This document shows positions 33,527-34,145 of a stretch of DNA of 34,145 nt, piece after piece; position 1 is the stretch's first letter, and the number at the start of each line of letters is the position of its first letter. The position numbers and the translations under genes are program-made. The stretch comes from an uncultured Clostridia bacterium (GTDB taxonomy: Bacteria; Bacillota; Clostridia; Christensenellales; CAG-917). The notes beneath the pieces are model-generated. The model searched no databases. It was not told the DNA's origin and saw only the letters and a list, made by a program, of their open reading frames with translations. The DNA lies in NCBI GenBank assembly GCA_947589635.1, contig CANQCC010000004.1, forward strand, positions 1 through 34,145, given 5' to 3'.

Positions 33527-33602
33527 GCCTGTTTAGCTCAGTCGGTAGAGCATTCGGCTGTTAACCGAAGTGTCGGGGGTCCGAGTCCCTCAACAGGCGC
33601 CA
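33527..33602 (+). tRNA. tRNA-Asn (GTT), encoded CCA
   Basis: 76-nt cloverleaf: acceptor GCCTGTT/AACAGGC, anticodon stem TTCGG/CCGAA with loop CTGTTAA, T-arm GGGGG-TCCGAGT-CCCTC, GCCA end. Confidence 0.97.
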
Positions 33603-33658: not shown

Positions 33659-33821
33659 GAGGGACTCGAACGGGCGGATCAGCAAACAATCCGGTGAATT
33701 GTTTGCCCGCCCCGGCGTGATAGCGCAGTGAACGCAACGTCGTGCGGGACGTGTGTCATCCTCTCGTTCGGGCGGGTCGTAAAGCGCCACACAAGCGGAG
33801 CGAGTCCCTCAACAGGCGCCA
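33659..33821. repeat. tRNA 3'-end-derived segment: inverted T-arm fragment at left, direct copy of the tRNA 3' end at right
   Basis: GAGGGACTCG (33659-33668) vs CGAGTCCCTC (33801-33810); CGAGTCCCTCAACAGGCGCCA at 33582-33602 and again at 33801-33821. Confidence 0.85.
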
Positions 33822-33855: not shown

Positions 33856-33950
33856 GCATAAAGTTATATGTGATCTTTTTGAGATAATTTTCTGTTTTGT
33901 AAGTTTGTATTGTGGGCATACCCCTTCGATAACGTTGGATAGAAGGCTAT

Positions 33951-34134
33951 CGGGGTCCCCGCAAAATTGCGTAGCGAGTTTGTGGGGTAATGGATCGGGG
34001 TCCCCGCAAAATTGCGTAGCGAGTTTGTGGGGTAATGAATCGGGGTCCCCGCAAAATTGCGTAGCGAGTTTGTGGGGTAATGGATCGGGGTCCCCATAGA
34101 AAGGAGCGTAGCGAGTTTTATGGGGCACAGATCC
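33951..34134. repeat. 45-bp tandem hairpin repeats (3 near-identical units plus 1 variant)
   Basis: CGGGGTCCCCGCAAAATTGCGTAGCGAGTTTGTGGGGTAATGGAT starts at 33951, 33996 and 34041; variant CGGGGTCCCCATAGAAAGGAGCGTAGCGAGTTTTATGGGG at 34086. Confidence 0.93.
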
Positions 34135-34145
34135 GCCCTCACTGC

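Follow-up and report, generated by a model that had tools for sequence, protein, structure and literature searches.

A GGGGT-tagged, REP-like hairpin repeat in gut Clostridia, found in head-to-tail arrays and inside split CGTC-type REPs

REPs have been described in two tag classes, GTAG and CGTC, one of which has no known enzyme, and the survey that describes them lists no Firmicutes, for the CGTC class or otherwise (PMC3733652). GTAG REPs with TnpA-REP/RAYT (BIMEs, REPINs) are imperfect palindromes of 20-40 bp with a one-sided unpaired tag, which are intergenic and clustered and whose species-specific stems contain covarying residues and G-T pairs (PMC3733652). TnpA-REP contacts the GTAG tetranucleotide, which lies on the 5' side of the palindrome and has been compared with a guide sequence (PMC8266576). 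CGTC REPs (dRS3, RPE) are tagged palindromes without a dedicated transposase (PMC3733652). Researchers have also found that IS elements such as ISPsy8 and ISRm22 use the symmetry axis of a REP as their insertion site (PMC1525189), and that pneumococcal BOX elements carry a variable number of tandem internal stem-loop modules (boxB) between different end modules (PMC3049150).

The window, by which we mean the whole 34,145-nt stretch analysed here, comes from a fragmented gut Clostridia MAG (1.41 Mb, 141 contigs) and carries four head-to-tail hairpin units (33951-34128) at its contig end (Table 1). In our reading, the array is a set of clustered copies of a palindromic DNA element, REP-like and non-autonomous, that carries a GGGGT tag; we put the probability of this reading, in which mobility and the single-strand route are inferred, at about 0.6. 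The 45-bp tandem hairpins that an earlier note had picked out from the sequence alone were borne out: the sequence is as quoted there, TRF reports a period of 45 with 3.7 copies and 93% matches (33949-34118), and the + strand of the array folds as RNA to -85.2 kcal/mol (z -6.1), better than 200 of 200 dinucleotide shuffles, with a z of -5.2 when it is folded as DNA and a weaker fold of the - strand (-55.5, z -3.3). Units 1-3 share an identical 31-mer hairpin, CCCCGCAAAATTGCGTAGCGAGTTTGTGGGG, in which the inner bases pair too (TTGC-GTA-GCGA); this leaves GTA (33971-33973 in unit 1), rather than a 10-mer, as the apical loop. The hairpin of unit 4 is a 34-mer, CCCCATAGAAAGGAGCGTAGCGAGTTTTATGGGG; it had been read as a compensatory change, and both of its arms do differ and still pair, but it belongs to a second subtype, found elsewhere in this genome and in the genus, and is not a mutated form of units 1-3.

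Table 1. Positions of the array units, their flanking modules and neighbouring tRNA sequences in the window
Feature	Position	Strand	Composition or context	Support
Unit 1	33951..33990	+	C, GGGGT tag 33952-33956, 31-nt hairpin 33957-33987, TAA	R1 score 55.4 bits
Unit 2	33996..34035	+	tag 33997-34001, hairpin 34002-34032	pattern and R1 model
Unit 3	34041..34080	+	tag 34042-34046, hairpin 34047-34077	pattern and R1 model
Unit 4	34086..34128	+	tag 34087-34091, 34-nt hairpin 34092-34125 (CCCCATAGAAAGGAGC-GTA-GCGAGTTTTATGGGG)	40.9 bits
Left module ACCCCTTCGATAACGTTGGATAGAAGGCTATC	33920..33951	+		recurs upstream of units on several other contigs
Right module start CACAGATCCGCCCTCACTGC	34126..34145	+	cut by contig end	complete on contigs C5, C13, C102, C125
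tRNA-Asn (GTT)	33527..33602	+	closest gene upstream of array; context only	
Second copy of tRNA-Asn 3' end, CGAGTCCCTCAACAGGCGCCA	33801..33821	+	context only	seen in sequence

Folding of the array allows adjacent units to swap whole arms. The exchange of pairing once proposed between CGGGG and the following CCCC fails, because the 5' GGGG would have to fold onto its own CCCC across a 1-nt loop; as the GGGG is also present on solitary copies, it is better seen as a tag than as a swap partner. The array had been suspected to continue past the edge; elsewhere in the genome the right module runs on as CAGATCCGCCCTCACTGCGTAC..., but the window itself shows only 20 nt of it before the contig stops. 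Contigs C3, C4, C5, C13, C32, C94 and C101 of this genome likewise stop in or beside such arrays, which indicates that short-read assembly breaks there and that copy numbers are underestimates; the presence of such arrays between genes also goes some way to account for the fragmentation of these MAGs.

The family extends well beyond the window. A strict pattern search of the whole genome, as the earlier note had proposed, returned 22 copies against 0 for the reversed-pattern control, so the hairpin is not confined to one locus, and single-locus slippage as the origin of the array is ruled out by the dispersed copies here and in congeners. The covariance model R1, built from 54 distinct copies, found 28 matches in the same genome at E<=0.01, giving about 25-30 copies overall, and matched 18 of 20 congeners, with counts from 1 to ~165 (roughly 165 in G005, 159 in G004, 140 in G016 and 103 in G003, these high values being approximate because at most 150 candidates were scored, and 1-56 in the other matching congeners); there were no R1 matches in G009 and G019. 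The strict CCCC..GCGTAGCGA..GGGG pattern reached only four species of the genus, whereas the covariance model reached genus-wide. Outside the genus matches are sparse: 8 of 147 other genomes of the same order matched, with 1-5 copies apiece, and a cross-species model, R2, gave hits in 14 genomes among 391 elsewhere in the class and in 5 among 398 elsewhere in the phylum, with a shared layout of GGGG(T/C)CCCC-R...T-GGGG. The named matching records are rabbit-gut Clostridia MAGs, and a single copy in a same-sample 'Acetatifactor' bin may reflect misbinning. The units have no covariance-model match in Rfam, in agreement with the earlier note, which recognised no named family, and no match was found that would place the window array on a phage or plasmid.

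The consensus unit consists of an unpaired GGGGT tag, a hairpin of 9-14 bp (CCCC-R-...-T-GGGG), often with a GNA apical triloop, and then TA. Its constant parts are the 5' tag, which nearly all copies carry across genomes (partly by search construction), the base of the stem (CCCC/GGGG) and a nearly constant T facing A or G. The loop, by contrast, is the most variable part across the family, and the supposedly fixed core GCGTAGCGAG is constant in one subtype only. The stem covariation that had been suspected proved strong: in a set of 53 copies drawn from 25 genomes, pairing holds in 97.4% of cells against 41-62% in slid controls, double-sided changes at five pairs number 67 against 16.6+-3.8 after shuffling, and the covariation score is 0.344 against 0.126, most of the cross-genome loci having been retrieved with models that reward pairing. 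An earlier copy set, mostly paralogues from four species, gave the same picture. Among copies picked by the tag and CCCC...GGGG, with pairing not required, all four variable pairs form in 111 of 132 distinct copies, and the fifth pair is A-T in 61, G.T in 60 and rarely G-C (5). Because this covariation is real in many copies and species, the alignments indicate that the stem structure is maintained. GNA triloops tip 73 of 150 distinct hairpins, mostly closed by C-G and with a few species dominating, against 0.9% after shuffling of the inner bases; such loops on G-C pairs form exceptionally stable DNA mini-hairpins (PMC4686876). An intrastrand triplex, which is defined by three tracts of >=6 nt in class I-IV order (PMC4666352), does not apply to these units, in which each tract has 4 nt and the order is G-C-G.

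The units are intergenic, and the 31 calls that place them inside genes look like short spurious ORFs. They occur in head-to-tail pairs more often than in inverted ones (107 vs 15, with loci partly redundant), spaced mostly at 45 bp, and the arrays are embedded in mosaics of other modules; besides arrays with recurrent left and right modules, units are also solitary or nested in other repeats. Replication-strand bias was absent overall (one of four genomes at p 0.046), a point against the reading preferred here. Further modules seen in the intergenic mosaics are GGGGGAGGCTCCGCGG..GGTGGTGGGGGTCCC palindromes and CTCGGACA..GTTACGTTA units (L016 on contig C13 of the window's genome, L018 and L009).

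Could the units act as RNA, as hairpins transcribed at gene 3' ends that protect, process or terminate mRNA? We regard this as unlikely, though it survives better than the other alternatives. Wobble pairs are tolerated on one strand only, with G.T outnumbering A.C 76 to 9 among the distinct tagged copies, from which the tag strand appears to be the folding strand; the asymmetry falls mostly at one position, and RNA would fit it equally. The + strand also folds far better as RNA than its complement, and divergent, promoter-bearing regions are avoided, with gene-context counts of ++35, +-33, --29 and -+11. However, these same counts show no fixed direction with respect to the gene upstream of the unit (++35 vs --29), no U tract follows the stem in the window, Rfam is silent, and units are found within other palindromes. 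Because of the missing gene orientation, the GNA triloops and the position inside other palindromes, we lean towards DNA as the acting form.

Another palindrome among these modules, TGTCAT[xyz]..[z'y'x']ATCCCC, matches the description of CGTC/TGTC-tagged REPs (PMC3733652). Repeats of this type are abundant in these Clostridia (L067, L070, L086, L089, L101, L157 and others); their triplets covary (TTC/GAA, TCC/GGA, GTT/AAC and GCT/AGC among others), and their CGCTn loop units slip. Eleven units of the window type split such REPs, with the complementary triplets kept in both halves; all 11 have the same orientation, part of which could stem from copying of ancestral composites, and several different junctions are seen. 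At the filled site L157 in G007 the order is CGTCATTGCGAACG-[CGGGGT...GGGGTAAAA]-TAGTGAAGCAATCC, and its counterpart L162 in G003 is a near-precise empty site with uninterrupted CGTCATTGCGAACGTAGTGAAGCAATCC, a comparison between species rather than strains; target duplication, which together with terminal inverted repeats would characterise a MITE, is not evident in this pair, and other junctions vary. A general test for palindromic flanks around units gave no excess, so targeting of loops is limited to a subset: general targeting of palindrome tips is unsupported, and only the CGTC-loop subset fits.

Another proposal is that the hairpins are a mutational by-product, that is, palindromes duplicated by slippage and kept perfect by template-switch (quasi-palindrome) correction, with neither mobility nor selection. 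Such correction could indeed restore pairing without selection, and the three identical hairpins of the window, the head-to-tail excess and the fast turnover of units at orthologous sites would all suit it. Nevertheless, we consider it improbable, as 18 of the 20 species hold dispersed copies at unrelated sites, the unpaired tag is conserved, GNA loops are enriched and the filled and empty sites correspond almost precisely. We likewise give little credence to binding sites for a DNA-architecture protein or recombinase serving chromosome organisation and spread by gene conversion: the dyad is near-perfect with conserved base and flanking tag, and REPs are known protein-binding sites (PMC2817692), but loop length and stem sequence vary, and a ~100-fold spread of copy number among congeners would be odd for a conserved function.

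Dispersal, tag, strand asymmetry and nesting together suit a REP-like element that works in single-stranded DNA form. One of the two strands, once single, would fold into the hairpin; an enzyme acting in trans (on the model of TnpA-REP, an HUH/Y1-like single-strand nuclease, or else some other transposase) would recognise tag plus hairpin, with GGGGT in the role that GTAG has in REPs, and would paste units into new sites, preferring the loops of CGTC-type REPs; tandem copies might then arise by local duplication or recombination. The earlier note had suspected TnpA-REP, a suspicion that the genomes did not confirm. Neither the window's genome nor copy-rich G005 yielded a Y1 gene (both are ~81-83% complete, so that absence is unproven), the unit flanks none of the 32 Y1 loci inspected, and copy number does not follow the presence of any REP-type Y1 transposase; thus, no candidate for the mobilising enzyme emerged. 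The Y1 genes of G004 and G016 encode plain IS200 TnpA, and G019 also has a Y1 gene. A RAYT-like gene of 253 aa in G010 (L055, 160-921) has inverted-repeat flanks, GGGGACGG..GCAAAAATGTTA, in a TIRtron-like arrangement; these repeats are unrelated to the unit, and RAYT was therefore set aside as the mover.

Compared with the described systems, the units share the general features of REPs, being short palindromes in many copies that are intergenic, mainly downstream of genes or in convergent regions, and that carry an unpaired conserved end tag. They differ from GTAG REPs in the tag, GTAG being present only in the loops of some subtypes, in their mostly head-to-tail arrays (rare in REPs), in having no unit-flanked RAYT, and in their occurrence in Bacillota, which are absent from the list in PMC3733652. 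They resemble CGTC-type REPs in being tagged palindromes with no dedicated transposase found, and they occupy the same loci, but the tag, the base of the stem and the loop are all different: the window element has neither the CGTC/TGTC tag nor a stem starting with AT, and it is the repeat split by such units that reads TGTCAT.../CGTCAT.... Since both tags were tried and neither fits, we place the GGGGT hairpin outside the two classes, as a separate REP-like variant, and no description of this tag was found in the open-access papers searched. The resemblance to BOX concerns modular layout, and units here also stand singly or inside other repeats, with varying end modules; ISPsy8 and ISRm22 are full transposons with direct repeats, in contrast to a non-coding unit of ~40 nt. 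More speculatively, GGGGT may mark a third tag class of REP-like ssDNA hairpins in Clostridia and other Bacillota; they would be mobilised in trans by an enzyme not yet recognised, and CGTC-REP loops would be their preferred, orientation-specific landing sites. If so, strains of gut Clostridia, in whose compact genomes the element is abundant and filled REP loops recur, could be compared to test how REPs without a RAYT are mobilised.

Two further associations were seen among the hairpin loci. tRNA genes or duplicated tRNA 3' ends lie near hairpins in the window and at L165, L168, L172, L182, L184 and L187, and a tRNA gene is present in 9 of 28 extra-genus loci, which looks above expectation. 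A lone tagged hairpin with a GCA triloop sits between genes for a Clp-type prohead protease and a major capsid protein-like product (L186, L188, L196-L198), in an apparent prophage common to five genomes.
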